43,636 nucleotides of DNA, from positions 1 through 43,636 of IMG/VR virus record IMGVR_UViG_3300042691_013192; one strand, 5' to 3'. A program made the translations under genes and the position numbers. Position 1 is the stretch's first letter, and every line of letters starts with the position of its first letter. This document shows, one piece after another, positions 19,735 to 33,129 of this stretch. The notes under the pieces were generated by a model, which worked only from the letters and a program-made list of their open reading frames with translations, was not told where the DNA came from and searched no databases. The stretch comes from a virus.

Positions 19735-21588
19735 TTATAAATCACTTGGTAATGCTGTGCGCTGTTTACCCTTAAAGTACTCTGCTTTTTCTGTTAGTGT
19801 GTCACCCTTGATAACTTGTCGTGCTACTCCATCAATTAAGTGCTCAGGCTCACACAGTATAGCTAGTGTGGTTCTAGCGCGGGTTACGGCGGTGTACAAC
19901 CACTCTCTGCTTACCATACGAGAATTAGAATTGTGCAGGCATATAAACACCTTATCCCACTCACTGCCTTGTGCTTTGTGGCATGTTATAGCATATCCTA
20001 GTAAGAGAGAGTTAACTTCTGCGGCGGTGGTTAGTTCTACCTCCTCCTCACTCTCGCACATACGCACTACTATGATGTGAGAGCTGGATTGTTTACGCTC
20101 TTCGCCGTCATCATCAAGGCTTAATTGCATGTTAGCTAGTATTGTATCCACGTCTGCTAAAGTGTTTGGTATGTGGTGAATACTATTCTGTGTAGATTGT
20201 GCCCCGTCTCGGTGGCCTCCCCAATAATTTAATGTGTGCGCCGCGTCTTGATATGCTATACCAGTGTAATTACCGTTTACCTTTATATCTACAATGTATG
20301 CATCTTCCTTGTCTACAAGTACTTTATCACCTATTGCGAAGTAGTATTTATTGTAACCAGCTATGACCTCATGAACTAGCTTTTGCTCAGTCACTGCAAA
20401 ATACTCTGCGATGTGTTTGTTTAGTTCAAGGGTGCCATATGATTTGTTATAGGCCATAAGAATGATGTCGGAAGTGGGATCATACATCTTTGAGTTGTAT
20501 AGTTTAATAAAATATTGCGCGGTAGCTCTGATTGCCCAATCCACTGAGAGCTGTTTACCCCACACATTGATTTGCATTTGAGGGAATTCGTTGTAAGTGT
20601 CTTTTTTTATTTCTTCGCCGTTAATGATTTGGGTAGCTAGTTTAATGATTGGCGAACCTAAAGCCTGTCTGTGTACTTCGTGTAGTTCAACAGTTGGTAG
20701 CTCTAACATCTTAAAGCCTAGGATTGCAGGGCCAAATACAGGGGGTAGCTGTTGAATGTCACCTAAGAATACTTCTTGTACTGGGTGTTTAATTGCTTCA
20801 CGGTATTTCTCATATAGATCAGTTCCTAACATGCCAGATTCTTCAAACACCATACAATTGATAGAACTGGGCAATGGGTTGGCTGCGTTGCGGGTGGGTA
20901 CAAATGGTTTGCTTGTTTTAGTGTTTCCGTCTGGGTCTGTTATTGATACTTCCTTGCGCTGATATTGTAGTAATTTGTGTAAAGTCATGCAATTGTTCTT
21001 TAGGTCTGCGGGTAAGCGCTTGCGAATATTGACAACCGCACGGCGGGTGAATGCTACTATTACCACACCGGGCGTGTCATCAATTAGAAACTTATGCCCC
21101 CCGCTTTGGAGCTTACCTATCTTACCTGATTGAATCAGCGCGGTTATTCCGGCGCTTTGTATAGTGGTCTTACCTGTACCCGCAGAACCTGTCACCACGC
21201 ATGATTGACCTGTACTTATTAGCTCAATTGCGCGTAATTGCTCAGGGTTATACTGTATTTGACCGTGTGCAAGTTTAAGTGGGTTATGGGGCGGTGCCTT
21301 CGTGTATGCATTGAGCTGTTCCGCATTATGCTGTGTTAGACCACTTGCACGCTTTGCGTTATTTGCTGCTTGTAGTGCTGCTATTCTAGCGCGCAATGCA
21401 TCGCCTACGGATTGGGTAGGTTGTTCTGTTGTGGCAGGTGTAGCGTTATTAATTGGGGAACTATTCACAGCGCTTCGCGCATCACTTGATTGAATTTCCC
21501 TTTCCTCCCTTGCTTGCTGTGCCTTAGCCTTAGCCAGTGCTATCATGTGCGCAATTTTTTGCGCGGGCGTCATTGTAGATTGTTCCAT
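19735..21588 (-). CDS. RecD/Dda-like superfamily 1B DNA helicase
   Basis: This 617-residue protein has a low-complexity N-terminus (about 1-105). The SF1B motifs follow: YNPEQLRAI (113-121), Walker A GSAGTGKTT (134-142), motif II MVFEESGM (246-253), motif III GDIQQLPPV (276-284), and near the C-terminus TCHKAQGSEWDKVFI and YTAVTRART. Such enzymes unwind DNA 5' to 3' using ATP and serve replication or recombination. Motif II reads EES where DEx is usual. AGGAA lies 8 nt before the ATG. It is the second helicase-type ATPase of the genome besides the DUF3987-like one. Confidence 0.9.
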   Translation of the reverse strand: MEQSTMTPAQKIAHMIALAKAKAQQAREEREIQSSDARSAVNSSPINNATPATTEQPTQSVGDALRARIAALQAANNAKRASGLTQHNAEQLNAYTKAPPHNPLKLAHGQIQYNPEQLRAIELISTGQSCVVTGSAGTGKTTIQSAGITALIQSGKIGKLQSGGHKFLIDDTPGVVIVAFTRRAVVNIRKRLPADLKNNCMTLHKLLQYQRKEVSITDPDGNTKTSKPFVPTRNAANPLPSSINCMVFEESGMLGTDLYEKYREAIKHPVQEVFLGDIQQLPPVFGPAILGFKMLELPTVELHEVHRQALGSPIIKLATQIINGEEIKKDTYNEFPQMQINVWGKQLSVDWAIRATAQYFIKLYNSKMYDPTSDIILMAYNKSYGTLELNKHIAEYFAVTEQKLVHEVIAGYNKYYFAIGDKVLVDKEDAYIVDIKVNGNYTGIAYQDAAHTLNYWGGHRDGAQSTQNSIHHIPNTLADVDTILANMQLSLDDDGEERKQSSSHIIVVRMCESEEEVELTTAAEVNSLLLGYAITCHKAQGSEWDKVFICLHNSNSRMVSREWLYTAVTRARTTLAILCEPEHLIDGVARQVIKGDTLTEKAEYFKGKQRTALPSDL

Positions 21589-21599
21589 GTTGTATATTC

Positions 21600-22619
21600 C
21601 TATGTGCGATGTTTGGCTGAATTATATAAAGCTAGTGCTTTTATATAGTCAATTTTGTTAAGGTAGTTTTTTGGGTCAGGCTTGGCGGTGGTATCCACCC
21701 CGCTAATCAATGCCTCAAATGCTGTAGCCTGTATCGCCCTATTCGCAATAAATGTAGGTGAGACATTACTAACCTGCGCCTGTTCGGTTATGTAATCAGG
21801 TTCTAGTATTTCATACTGAGTCTTACATGCAACCCGTAACGCTTGAATTAACACGGTTCCTATGGGTGTATAACAGGGAACACTCGAATCTATTTCGTCG
21901 ATTAATTCTGTTATGTCGTGTTCGTCATAGCAAATAAGGGTACGTTGACAGATTGCATCGCGTATCATTTTGCACCACAGATTTTTAATTGTAATCATAG
22001 GCCCAAAATGTGTGACTAGGTGCGGCGGTGTAAGTGTCAAAGTATGTGGGAACTGTGCAACCCTTGCGGCCCACTCGCTAATTAATCTAGCCAGTTTTTC
22101 AGGCTGTGACCTGTATCGGTTAATCAACCCCTCAATATGGGTTTCACGCTCGCGCTCTACACTCAGGATGTAATTCCTAGAGTAGTTCACAGTGTAGTCG
22201 TCAATTGCTTGTTTCCATACATTCAAATGTTGCTCAAGTAACTCAAGCGTATTATTGTGTTTGTTTATGTGTATCTTAGGTATTACTGCTGATGTATCTG
22301 GTATAGTAGCAACCACATCACACACATTGATTAGATCATGGATACAAGTATTTATTATGGTGCAATCGGCCGGGGATTGTATCCAACCTGATTCCACTAT
22401 TACACGTTTAGTTGAGTATAGTTTACTCAGTGTGCATAAGTACAATTCTGTGTTTGTGAGTGTGACAGTTTCGTCAATGTATGATTCAAGAATGTTATTT
22501 ATTGTGTTTTGCGCGGTGTAGAATATAGGATGCACATAACCACTTACACGTAAATCTAGTGATGTAAAATGCTGAACTGCAAATCTGGTATTACTTAGAG
22601 CACAATTGACTGTTGTCAT
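21600..22619 (-). CDS. Hypothetical phage protein
   Basis: This is a 339-residue protein without a family I recognise. It is alpha/beta with several Cys (LYLCTLSKL, CTIINTCIHDLINVCDV), an Arg/Glu-rich central helix (LSVERERETHIEGLINRY) and a C-terminal unit (KPDPKNYLNKIDYIKALALY). AAAGGT lies 7 nt before the ATG. It sits directly upstream of the RecD-like helicase gene and may be co-expressed with it. The 100-bp gap before it contains a small hairpin (AACACA/TGTGTT). Confidence 0.65.
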   Translation of the reverse strand: MTTVNCALSNTRFAVQHFTSLDLRVSGYVHPIFYTAQNTINNILESYIDETVTLTNTELYLCTLSKLYSTKRVIVESGWIQSPADCTIINTCIHDLINVCDVVATIPDTSAVIPKIHINKHNNTLELLEQHLNVWKQAIDDYTVNYSRNYILSVERERETHIEGLINRYRSQPEKLARLISEWAARVAQFPHTLTLTPPHLVTHFGPMITIKNLWCKMIRDAICQRTLICYDEHDITELIDEIDSSVPCYTPIGTVLIQALRVACKTQYEILEPDYITEQAQVSNVSPTFIANRAIQATAFEALISGVDTTAKPDPKNYLNKIDYIKALALYNSAKHRT

Positions 22620-22719: not shown

Positions 22720-23085
22720 TTAAAATATGCTAACCAATCTTTGAACTATTTGTTCCCTTGTGACTCTCGCTAATAATTCTAGCTTTCCACCTTGTAAATC
22801 TAGCTTTCTGAATATTACTTTGAAATGTGTACTTATTGTTTCAGGTGATATTTCCAATTCTTTGGCTATTCTCTTATTAGAGTATATTCCATCTAGTTTC
22901 ATTTTACCTACTATTTGGGCCTGTCTGTAACTTAACTTAGTTAGGTCAAGCGGGGTATCATTCTTGAATGCTGGAACTGTTAGTTCCAAAAAAGGTTTGT
23001 TTGTGGTACTTGTAAATTGTGAATTAAACTCGCGGTGATTGTATCTACCTGTATCTGTGTCTGATTGTGTGGTGTGCTTACTCAT
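22720..23085 (-). CDS. LuxR/GerE-type helix-turn-helix DNA-binding protein
   Basis: This 121-residue protein has a polar N-terminus and a C-terminal LuxR/GerE-like domain at about 52-104: LSYRQAQIVGKMKLDGIYSN, then KRIAKELEISPETISTHFKV, then IFRKLDL. The pattern of a first helix, the scaffold ..IA..L.IS..T...H., and a final helix is diagnostic for this fold. There is no sensor or receiver domain, so it is a stand-alone DNA-binding protein. The frame is open to 23130. The ATG at 23085 has GGAG at 8 nt and avoids overlap with the gene before it. As the second gene after the early promoter it is a good candidate for an early regulator of phage or host promoters. Confidence 0.85.
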   Translation of the reverse strand: MSKHTTQSDTDTGRYNHREFNSQFTSTTNKPFLELTVPAFKNDTPLDLTKLSYRQAQIVGKMKLDGIYSNKRIAKELEISPETISTHFKVIFRKLDLQGGKLELLARVTREQIVQRLVSIF

Positions 23086-23104
23086 GATATTAACTCCAGT
23101 ACTA

Positions 23105-23485
23105 TTAAATAAAAAGGTTTTCAGATTCAAATCCCCAAAATAGCGCTAAACAAAATGCAAATATAGCTTCGCTATGTACGCGGGGATCAATAAGGTTTTT
23201 TATTTCGCCTACTCTACTTGAATCTAAATTGTTACTTAGTGTTTTTAGTCCTTCAGAGATTAACTTAACTTTGTATTCAGGTATATTAGTTAGGTCTAAT
23301 TTCATAATGGCGTACTTACTAACTTCACTAGGTATTACTATGCTTAAATGTCTATCCATACCGGGGAAAGCCGAATTAAGGGTGAACTTAATTGCTTGAT
23401 AAGATATAGTTCCTAACGCTTCAAAGCTATAGTTTGATATTAATAACTCTCCGTGCTTATCTGTTTTATACAACGCCAATTCCAT
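23105..23485 (-). CDS. Hypothetical early protein
   Basis: This 126-residue protein is the first gene after the promoter at 23521-23549, with a leader of about 29 bases. It is alpha/beta (ELALYKTDKHGELLISNYSF, HLSIVIPSEVSKYAIMKLDL) with a hydrophobic aromatic C-terminus (IFAFCLALFWGFESENLF). TAGGT lies 7 nt before the ATG. No family was recognised. Its position suggests early expression and possibly a role in host takeover. Confidence 0.65.
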   Translation of the reverse strand: MELALYKTDKHGELLISNYSFEALGTISYQAIKFTLNSAFPGMDRHLSIVIPSEVSKYAIMKLDLTNIPEYKVKLISEGLKTLSNNLDSSRVGEIKNLIDPRVHSEAIFAFCLALFWGFESENLFI

Positions 23486-23520: not shown

Positions 23521-23549
23521 ATTGTGCGCCCAGTGGCGGTGTGTGTCAA
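23521..23549 (-). promoter_or_regulatory. Early promoter for the minus block
   Basis: On the minus strand TTGACA (23549-23544) is separated by 17 bases from CACAAT (23526-23521). The -35 is perfect and the -10 matches four of six. The start would fall near 23514, about 29 bases before the first ATG. The spacer holds a short dyad (CGCC/GGCG around CAGT). Confidence 0.65.
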
Positions 23550-23576: not shown

Positions 23577-23660
23577 ATGTGAGTGATGTGAATCATGTGA
23601 GTGATGTGGTGTGATGTGGCCTATGTGAACCATATTGCGATTGCGGAGGGGGGCAGTGTG
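23577..23660. repeat. Iteron arm A (TGTGA words)
   Basis: TGTGA occurs at 23578, 23587, 23596, 23610 and 23624, mostly in the longer word GATGTGAGTGATGTG. The first three copies are nine bases apart. This arm is the imperfect inverted partner of the arm near 24000-24079. Confidence 0.7.
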
Positions 23661-23691
23661 TATTTCATGCCCTCTGAGTTGGTGTATATAA

Positions 23692-23747
23692 CCTTATATA
23701 CCTTATTATTACCTTATATAACCTTATTTCTCTGTGTATAACCCTAT
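23692..23747. repeat. CCTTAT repeats in the AT-rich core
   Basis: CCTTAT starts at 23692, 23701, 23712 and 23722, and CCCTAT at 23742. Spacings are close to one or two helix turns. The surroundings are almost pure TATA-type sequence. This fits an easily melted element with phased protein sites. Confidence 0.6.
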
Positions 23748-23878
23748 ATATGGGTGTATTTATTGTTAGTTGTATTTATATGTATTATATCTTACCGTTT
23801 GTATAGGTGTCACTAAATTTTTTCATAATGTGAAATGAGTAGAGATATATAGACTAACAGATACAGCTACCAACAGAC

Positions 23879-23979
23879 TAGGATATAAATAGAGAGTAAT
23901 AGATAGTAATAGAGAGAGTAATGGAGAGTTATAGAGTGAGTAAGTAATAGATAGTTAGAGAGAGTGAAAAAAGAGGGGT
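23879..23979 (+). repeat. 101-base tract without a single C, purine-rich repeats
   Basis: The plus strand has no cytosine from 23879 to 23979. The tract is built from degenerate AGAGAGTAATAGATAGTAAT units. Such strand asymmetry favours R-loop or single-strand formation and is not explained by coding. Confidence 0.7.
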
Positions 23980-23994
23980 CGAAAACCACACCCC
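23967..23994 (-). terminator. Probable terminator for the two small genes at 24102-24598
   Basis: On the minus strand GGGGT (23994-23990) can pair with ACCCC (23979-23975) over a 10-nt loop, followed by TCTTTTTT. The stem is short but GC-rich. It would stop minus-strand transcripts before they enter the origin-like region. Confidence 0.5.
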
Positions 23995-23996
23995 CC

Positions 23997-24079
23997 ATGC
24001 CTGCAATGGTCATATTGTTCACATTGGCCATATATGGTCATATTTGCTCACATCACCCATATGGCTCACATCGCTCACA
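23997..24079. repeat. Iteron arm B (TCACA words)
   Basis: TCACA occurs at 24019, 24048, 24066 and 24075. ATGGTCATATTG and GGCCATATATGGTCATATT are additional related words. The arm is the imperfect reverse complement of the arm at 23577-23660. Confidence 0.7.
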
Positions 24080-24101
24080 TGAGGTGATGATACAAACCAA
24101 C

Positions 24102-24383
24102 TTACTTAACCATATGTAATAGTACTCTACCTGTACTCTTAGCAGCTACTAACTTAGGCTGGGTAAGATTAAATAGGCTATATTTAATAACCCCAGCACA
24201 ACCATTATTAGCTACACGTAACCAATCCAGTGCCTCTGAGTAGCTCCAAGCATACTGCCATGTTCCATGTGTATCTAACACAGCATAGCCACCGCCAAAA
24301 CGAACAGTAAAACTTTTAATTGATCTGCGTGTATGTTTGAATAGTTTGTTTAGTTTAGGGTTTAGTTTATTAAGTGTGCTCAT
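24102..24383 (-). CDS. Hypothetical small basic protein
   Basis: This 93-residue, strongly basic protein has an N-terminus (LNPKLNKLFKHTRRSIKSFT) followed by a beta-type segment (VRFGGGYAVLDTHGTWQYAW). AGGA lies 9 nt before the ATG. It is the second of two small genes transcribed from the divergent control region and is followed by a probable terminator. No family was recognised. Basic character and early position would fit a DNA-binding or host-interaction protein, but this is a guess. Confidence 0.6.
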   Translation of the reverse strand: MSTLNKLNPKLNKLFKHTRRSIKSFTVRFGGGYAVLDTHGTWQYAWSYSEALDWLRVANNGCAGVIKYSLFNLTQPKLVAAKSTGRVLLHMVK

Positions 24384-24918: not shown

Positions 24919-24966
24919 TAAAGTTTCCAATTCCCCACTAACAAAAAATAATATTAAAAAATAAAC

Positions 24967-32682: not shown

Positions 32683-33129
32683 ATGGCACAACATAAATTG
32701 TACAAATCTTGCCTGAGTAGTAACTCATATATATTCGCTGGTGGTACCATCGGAGGTAAGCGAGCAGTATTTATTAATGGCAGATATGCTACTGGCAACG
32801 CCGAAGAAATTGCTGAGTTAGACGCACTGATCGCTGGCGGTAACCAGTATATTTACGTAGATGCTTCTGAGCCAGAAGTGGATACTGATAATTTAGATCC
32901 AATAGAACAGATTAGGCGTAAAGCTGTTGCTGAGTATATTGCAAGACAAGCTGCCGCTAATAGTCTAACAAATGATCGCGGGGAAACTGCCTCTGATAAG
33001 TTAGCTAATATTGGTAATAGTACTACCATTTCTCCGATTAGCTCAGAGCAATCTAACTCAGTTGAGGCAGTTGATCCAACTAGTGAGCTAGCAACCTTAA
33101 CTGCTTCACTTAAAGCAAAGAAAGCATAA
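32683..33129 (+). CDS. Hypothetical head/neck-module protein
   Basis: This 148-residue protein has a compact N-terminal domain (about 1-65: KLYKSCLSSNSYIFAGGTIG, AVFINGRYATGNAEEIAELD), a helical middle (DPIEQIRRKAVAEYIARQAA) and a disordered Ser-rich C-terminal part. I recall the N-terminal pattern, a strand pair followed by EI..L..L in an exposed loop region, in small phage proteins between capsid and neck genes. Function is unknown. AAAAGGA lies 6 nt before the ATG. Confidence 0.65.
   Translation: MAQHKLYKSCLSSNSYIFAGGTIGGKRAVFINGRYATGNAEEIAELDALIAGGNQYIYVDASEPEVDTDNLDPIEQIRRKAVAEYIARQAAANSLTNDRGETASDKLANIGNSTTISPISSEQSNSVEAVDPTSELATLTASLKAKKA

Follow-up and report, generated by a model that had tools for sequence, protein, structure and literature searches.

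An inverted-iteron control element beside the replication operon of PaP2-like podoviruses, a candidate replication origin and operator

The DNA analysed here in full (the window) is a virus record of 43,636 bp which carries, at positions 23,577 to 24,079, an intergenic region bounded by short words repeated in mirror image, and the question this locus raises is whether replication starts here, whether expression of the adjoining genes is controlled here, or both. A 69-bp end repeat closes the record into a complete circle of 43,567 bp, the genome of a phage distantly related to the PaP2-like podoviruses (Fredfastierviridae). The minus strand left of 24.6 kb encodes a Dda-like helicase, a DUF3987 primase, a PolA polymerase, a Sak4-like protein and an exonuclease, and the plus strand from 25.0 kb encodes terminase, portal, major head protein and further structural genes. 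Cultured relatives are distant, at about 29–36% protein identity (PaP2/119X/PaMx41 of the Fredfastierviridae, Jamesmcgillvirus; Polaromonas phage Tiera; Aeromonas phage P5; EBPR podovirus 3), and no nucleotide similarity between the window and deposited phages was found. Closer relatives are abundant in IMG/VR (50–66% identity in the terminase, 39–51% in the helicase). In two of the relatives, G008 and G010, about 100 extra bases interrupt the matches to the helicase (L045–L048) while a single frame of 801–828 aa stays open, which suggests an insertion in the protein.

Repeats and core of the window region

An earlier note, made from the sequence of the window, described five TGTGA words on the left facing four TCACA words on the right, and these are present as described: TGTGA at 23578, 23587, 23596, 23610 and 23624, and TCACA at 24019, 24048, 24066 and 24075, with a sixth TGTGA at 23829 that belongs to the core and lies outside both arms. 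Five TGTGA within 60 nt did not arise in any of 200 Markov simulations (the highest count was four, seen once), and when the same 6.5 kb was simulated 240 times, no combined score for inverted repeats and periodicity reached the observed 16.0 (highest 12.3); the arm repeats are real and non-random. The 18-bp word reported to recur in inverted form about 390 bases apart is found at 23618–23635 (+) and 24012–24029 (−), 394 bp apart, and its exact sequence has two matches in IMG/VR, in larger contigs. The arm designated I2 (23577–23608 against 24049–24080) is 84% complementary over 32 nt. Arm-to-arm spacing in the window is 446 bp and the word period is 9 bp.

Within the core, CCTTAT was confirmed at 23692, 23701, 23712 and 23722, together with CCCTAT at 23742; CCTTAT occurs only nine times in the whole window, and it was not seen as a conserved word in relatives. 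The C-free tract to its right spans 101 nt and is the longest in the window. No gene fits the region, as had been stated: it contains no ORF of at least 60 aa, the largest being 54 aa, and Rfam gave no match there. As to transcription units beginning or ending at its edges, the gene at 24102–24383 ends at the right edge and that at 23105–23485 starts left of the region; both flanking genes are on the minus strand, so the region is not the point of transcription divergence, which lies at 24.6–25.0 kb. The features of the region and the neighbouring genes are collected in Table 1.

Table 1. Coordinates of the intergenic element and of the genes beside it in the window.
Feature	Position	Strand	Remarks
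Dda/RecD-like SF1 helicase	19735..21588	−	
f340, ~340-aa protein	21600..22619	−	nearly all relatives have it immediately 5′ of the helicase
136-aa protein with LuxR/GerE-type HTH	22720..23130	−	in the position that f130 takes in most relatives; Pfam PF00196, 35.7 bits (cut-off 23.5)
126-aa protein	23105..23485	−	first gene of the leftward operon
Sigma70-like promoter, TTGACA-17-CACAAT	23521..23549	−	leftward into 23105–23485 and the helicase operon; next to the left array but outside it
Left iteron array	23577..23635	+	adjoins the helicase operon; five ATGTGA-type words, 9, 9, 14 and 14 bp apart, last part GGCCTATGTGAACCATAT
AT-rich tract with CCTTAT (minus strand ATAAGG) repeats about 10 bp apart	23688..23727	.	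candidate unwinding element
DnaA-box-like sequence TTATACACA	23733..23741	−	single copy in the window gap
Second promoter-like match, GTGACA-18-TATAAT	23784..23813	−	falls within the central motif, of which it is an alternative reading
Conserved central motif as it stands in the window, AAATTTAGTGACACCTATACAAACGGTAAGA	23790..23820	−	relatives: AAATTTTGATACCCCTAAATATGACCGTAAGA
C-free purine-rich tract	23879..23979	+	right half of the purine/pyrimidine switch
Right iteron array, inverted	24012..24080	−	four TCACA words, including GGCCAATGTGAACAATAT on the minus strand (24012–24029)
93-aa protein	24102..24383	−	at the right edge, upstream of the region; in most relatives the unrelated f226 gene stands here

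The element in relatives

Loss of the repeats in relatives with the same gene order had been named as a result that would count against an origin. The outcome favours the origin-like reading: the arms persist even though the word changes. Forty-three loci span the spot, with both TerS and f340 in the stretch that was fetched, and 37 of them have inverted iteron arms by systematic scan and reading by eye, spaced 212–465 bp apart around an AT-rich core. Accepted loci mostly score 12–22, a few lower-scoring ones (L090, L150) being taken on their repeated word, and the two shuffled controls run for each locus scored 11.7 or below. When only the gap was scanned, the inverted score exceeded the direct score in all 37 curated loci, and the direct score was above 12 in 17. 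Arm-scan matches of the low-complexity CAG type in coding DNA (e.g. L105, L101 and L116) were discarded by eye. Alanine-rich proteins (Y/D-A-A-A) coded by CAG/GCT-type repeats are seen near the gap at L116:7761–8336, L114:7614–8141 and G005:1–330. The f226 family (e.g. L051:15336–16100, minus strand), of 220–270 aa and no known family, adjoins the distal arm in 48 loci and is absent from the window and PaP2.

The word varies among phages and matches between both arms of one genome; examples are AGACTGCT, AGACCGCT, TGCCAGAA, TTGACTAA, CTAACAGA, AACCAATT, TTTTCTG, ATAATC and GTGCTAnnnn. Most arms have about three repeats, and the period is mostly 8 bp, with periods of 6 (L002, L133), 7 (L149, L117), 9 (the window, L114) and 10 bp (G008/G010, PaP2) also represented. 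The two arms of L080 show a CT/TC difference at two positions of the spacer (AGACCGCT AGACTGTC versus AGACCGTC AGACTGCT), more in keeping with degenerate sites for a protein than with base pairing; a hairpin or RNA base-pairing reading of the arms is disfavoured, since arm pairs differ at such degenerate positions. PaP2, with Shea and PaMx41 the closest cultured phages, has the same element in its gap at 43683–43783 plus 1–379, with AAGGTAG words about 10 bp apart and a central AATTTTTTAACCCCC, but differs in that f130 was not found there. Polaromonas phage Tiera has inverted words of the GTTCGTTAT type, seen by eye only, and no clear arms were seen in Aeromonas phage P5.

The cores share a central motif, AATTTT-n-GGGG/CCCC, in which AATTTT(n)A.. 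stands beside a G or C run and is often followed by ACCGTAAGA/GCTAAGA. It is present in 29 of the 37 cores against 3.0 expected from shuffles, although we note that the pattern was written after viewing the data, with a CACC alternative added for the window; a post hoc pattern was used because an automatic PWM failed on the G-run variants. AT makes up 77% of the core at its centre, and across the core the purine content moves from 0.38–0.44 to 0.50–0.57 and GC skew from −0.33 to +0.14, a switch that falls at the core centre despite the same gene direction on both sides.

Skew along the whole genome is given little weight. Cumulative GC skew, which the earlier note had proposed as a check, did not point to the region: its minimum in the window is at 32,739, and in relatives the skew at the gap is mixed or opposite. 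The change of coding strand confounds the purine-skew minimum at 24,939 in the window. Cumulative AT skew reaches its minimum at 23,823, 6 bp away from the region's midpoint, but this minimum is partly a product of the region's own composition; G008 and G010 resemble the window in AT skew (within about 40 bp), and other relatives do not.

Candidate readers of the words

f130 is a previously undescribed small protein, a family of 91–176 aa with the N-terminus KYRPYFT..EL... Of the neighbouring gene families, f130 alone clearly follows word similarity once helicase relatedness is removed (27 loci, partial rank r 0.445, Mantel p 0.0005), and the signal resides in residues 1–75, not in residues 94–127. 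For f340 the partial r is 0.20 (p 0.03) in the 27-locus set and approximately 0 on all 37 loci, and TerS, TerL, f226 and f120 gave no significant tracking of word similarity in the same partial Mantel test. f340, which is present in 65 of 72 loci and has a confident fold prediction (pLDDT 86), was rejected as the reader because its correlation is far weaker than that of f130; its model has no PDB fold match, and its best BFVD match is an unnamed viral protein (A0A6G5YB32).

Individual genomes show the same behaviour. Within one tight helicase clade, L081 and L083 (AGAC words) have RPYFT..EL in f130, and L097 and L139 (TTGACTAA words) have RPYF(L/I)..I. L008 and L034, which lie outside the training set and have TTGACTAA words, carry an f130 closest to that of L097, also a TTGACTAA phage, and an f340 most identical to that of L083, an AGAC phage. 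Residue 8 of the L008 and L034 f130 is T, so the code does not consist of this residue alone.

All phages in which f130 was found have words of 8-bp period; it was not found in phages with other periods, the window included. Four 8-bp phages without f130 at the usual place carry it elsewhere in the record, and in L131 and L015, which are partial contigs, 8-bp words are present and no f130 was found. This co-occurrence is weak evidence by itself because the presence of f130 on the tree can be explained by as few as three changes. In L111 (~11.9 kb), L095 (~17.4 kb), L130 (~9.9 kb) and L135 (~20.0 kb), f130 is relocated downstream of the helicase and the 8-bp arms are still in the gap.

The AlphaFold2 monomer model of f130 (mean pLDDT 79) has extended residues 1–8 followed by helices at 9–22 and 25–42, the strand-helix-helix order of ribbon-helix-helix (RHH) proteins, although in the monomer no strand is assigned there. 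f130 had no Pfam, PHROG, PDB-sequence or significant Foldseek match, RHH proteins included, and a monomer model cannot show an inter-subunit sheet; the model suggests an RHH-type protein, and we do not file f130 as one. MetJ is a protein of this type whose met boxes are 8-bp tandem sites. The spacing is shared with the arms described here, and words such as AGACTGCT resemble AGACGTCT boxes, but our words are not palindromic, the arms form an inverted pair, and no homology to MetJ is detectable.

The window has no f130 and instead carries a LuxR/GerE-type gene in the corresponding place in the operon. Among 35 records, only the window has a GerE match over the cut-off, and GerE was on that ground rejected as a family-wide reader. 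From its position and the absence of f130, the 136-aa protein is probably the reader of the 9-bp ATGTGA words in this genome. The idea in the earlier note that the LuxR-type protein may bind the arms gains indirect support.

Origin, operator or other site

We interpret the region as a family-wide inverted-iteron control element, most likely a replication origin with an early-operon operator built in, a reading that we hold at slightly better than even. The earlier description of an origin-like region with inverted iterons around an unwinding-prone core thus stands as to its architecture, which fits and is kept across the phage family; the GC skew was negative, and a promoter or operator role is at least part of the truth. 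Tandem direct repeats of one word lie next to an AT-rich element, and helicase, DUF3987 primase, PolA, exonuclease and Sak4 adjoin the region as an operon. Iteron-type theta origins (plasmid Rep/iteron, lambda ori-O) likewise have tandem short direct repeats by AT-rich DNA, adjoining a replication operon and with a promoter at the repeats, and the window also has one DnaA-box-like site. They differ from the element here, which has two mirror-image arrays 212–465 bp apart, units of 6–10 bp (mostly 8), words that are unrelated between related phages and no recognised Rep initiator; neither Pfam nor PHROGs recognised a Rep-type initiator domain, and f130 or the GerE-type protein is a candidate by covariation and position.

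In the mechanism that we infer, a small phage-encoded DNA-binding protein, f130 in most phages and probably the 136-aa LuxR/GerE-type protein in the window, would bind the tandem words of both arms cooperatively, and the mirror-image arrangement would set two complexes facing each other across the AT-rich core. These complexes may help to melt the centre, at AATTTT beside the G/C run where the strand composition switches, and the melted centre would admit the phage helicase, the DUF3987 primase-helicase and the PolA polymerase. At the operon-side arm the DNA-binding protein would also tune the TTGACA promoter and so regulate its own expression, as happens at plasmid iteron origins.

A purely transcriptional switch is a possibility that we regard as real, if rather doubtful. 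The arms would then be paired operators of the early promoter, both bound by f130 or its substitute, with DNA looping across 212–465 bp to repress or activate that promoter, and there would be no origin function. In favour of such a switch, most curated loci have a TTGACA-17-(TATAAT-like) promoter that points toward the helicase operon and overlaps or abuts the arm on that side. The location of f130 and the GerE-type gene within the operon driven by that promoter also favours it, as does the predicted strand-helix-helix order of f130, which resembles small regulators. The window departs from most relatives in that its promoter stands clear of the arm, a point against the origin-with-operator reading. 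Around the element more widely, the window has no more promoter-like sites than shuffles have, and the case for the promoter rests on the recurrence of its position across relatives. A switch leaves unexplained the central motif, the AT-rich core and the composition switch, as well as the retention of the distant arm at the end of an upstream gene in the same orientation.

A partition or episome-maintenance site, centromere-like, where an RHH-type protein would occupy short tandem repeats that overlap a promoter, is improbable. The omega protein (ParB) of pSM19035 is a ribbon-helix-helix protein that binds 7–8 bp tandem sites, the parS heptads, and the 7–8 bp arrays overlapping a promoter closely resemble them (PMC9499535); the candidate reader, too, is small, with an extended N-terminus and two helices. 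The PaP2-like phage Shea persists as an episome (PMC13348215), which makes an origin or a maintenance site plausible for the group. Against partition, none of the window proteins scanned was recognised as a ParA-type ATPase, f130 has no sequence or significant fold match to RHH proteins, omega–parS needs at least four contiguous repeats for full ParA activation and most arms here have about three, and a centromere has no need of inverted arms with an AT core. The literature searched gives no account of this region, or of how PaP2-like phages start replication or persist as episomes. Relatives in GTDB MAG contigs, from bacterial or archaeal bins (L147, L148, L149 and L150), are separate contigs of ~42–44 kb (4.7 kb for L147), which would fit episomes or free phage.

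It is very unlikely that the arms are terminase binding sites around a packaging cut or genome end: the PaP2 GenBank record does begin inside its gap copy, but related records begin at shifted positions, with portal coordinates differing by hundreds to thousands of bp, PhageTerm indicated terminal redundancy at the ends of Shea (PMC13348215), and the word covaries with f130 and not with TerS or TerL. Binding of host CRP, which the earlier note had raised, deserves scarcely any credence, since the arms do contain TGTGA and TCACA, the CRP half-sites, but as direct repeats within each arm, with no TGTGA-N6-TCACA in the window and unrelated words at the same place in relatives.

These episome-capable podoviruses may have a swappable origin-specificity system, in which each lineage has a private word and a matching reader, either a variant of f130 or an unrelated protein such as the LuxR/GerE-type one of the window, and the two change together by mutation or replacement; we put this forward tentatively. 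Replication or early control would then be incompatible between similar co-infecting phages, as in plasmid incompatibility or phage immunity groups. The element provides a precise candidate origin or operator, and the word–f130 pairs would be a natural collection of protein–DNA specificities built on an 8-bp code; they could show how a small DNA-binding protein shifts its target and possibly serve as orthogonal plasmid origins or repressor–operator pairs.

Two phages with 6-bp words (AATCAT/ATTCAT) share a protein of 191–215 aa at the f130 position (L002:7295–7870 and L133:6993–7640); its N-terminus is seemingly unrelated to that of f130, and it is a candidate reader of the 6-bp words.
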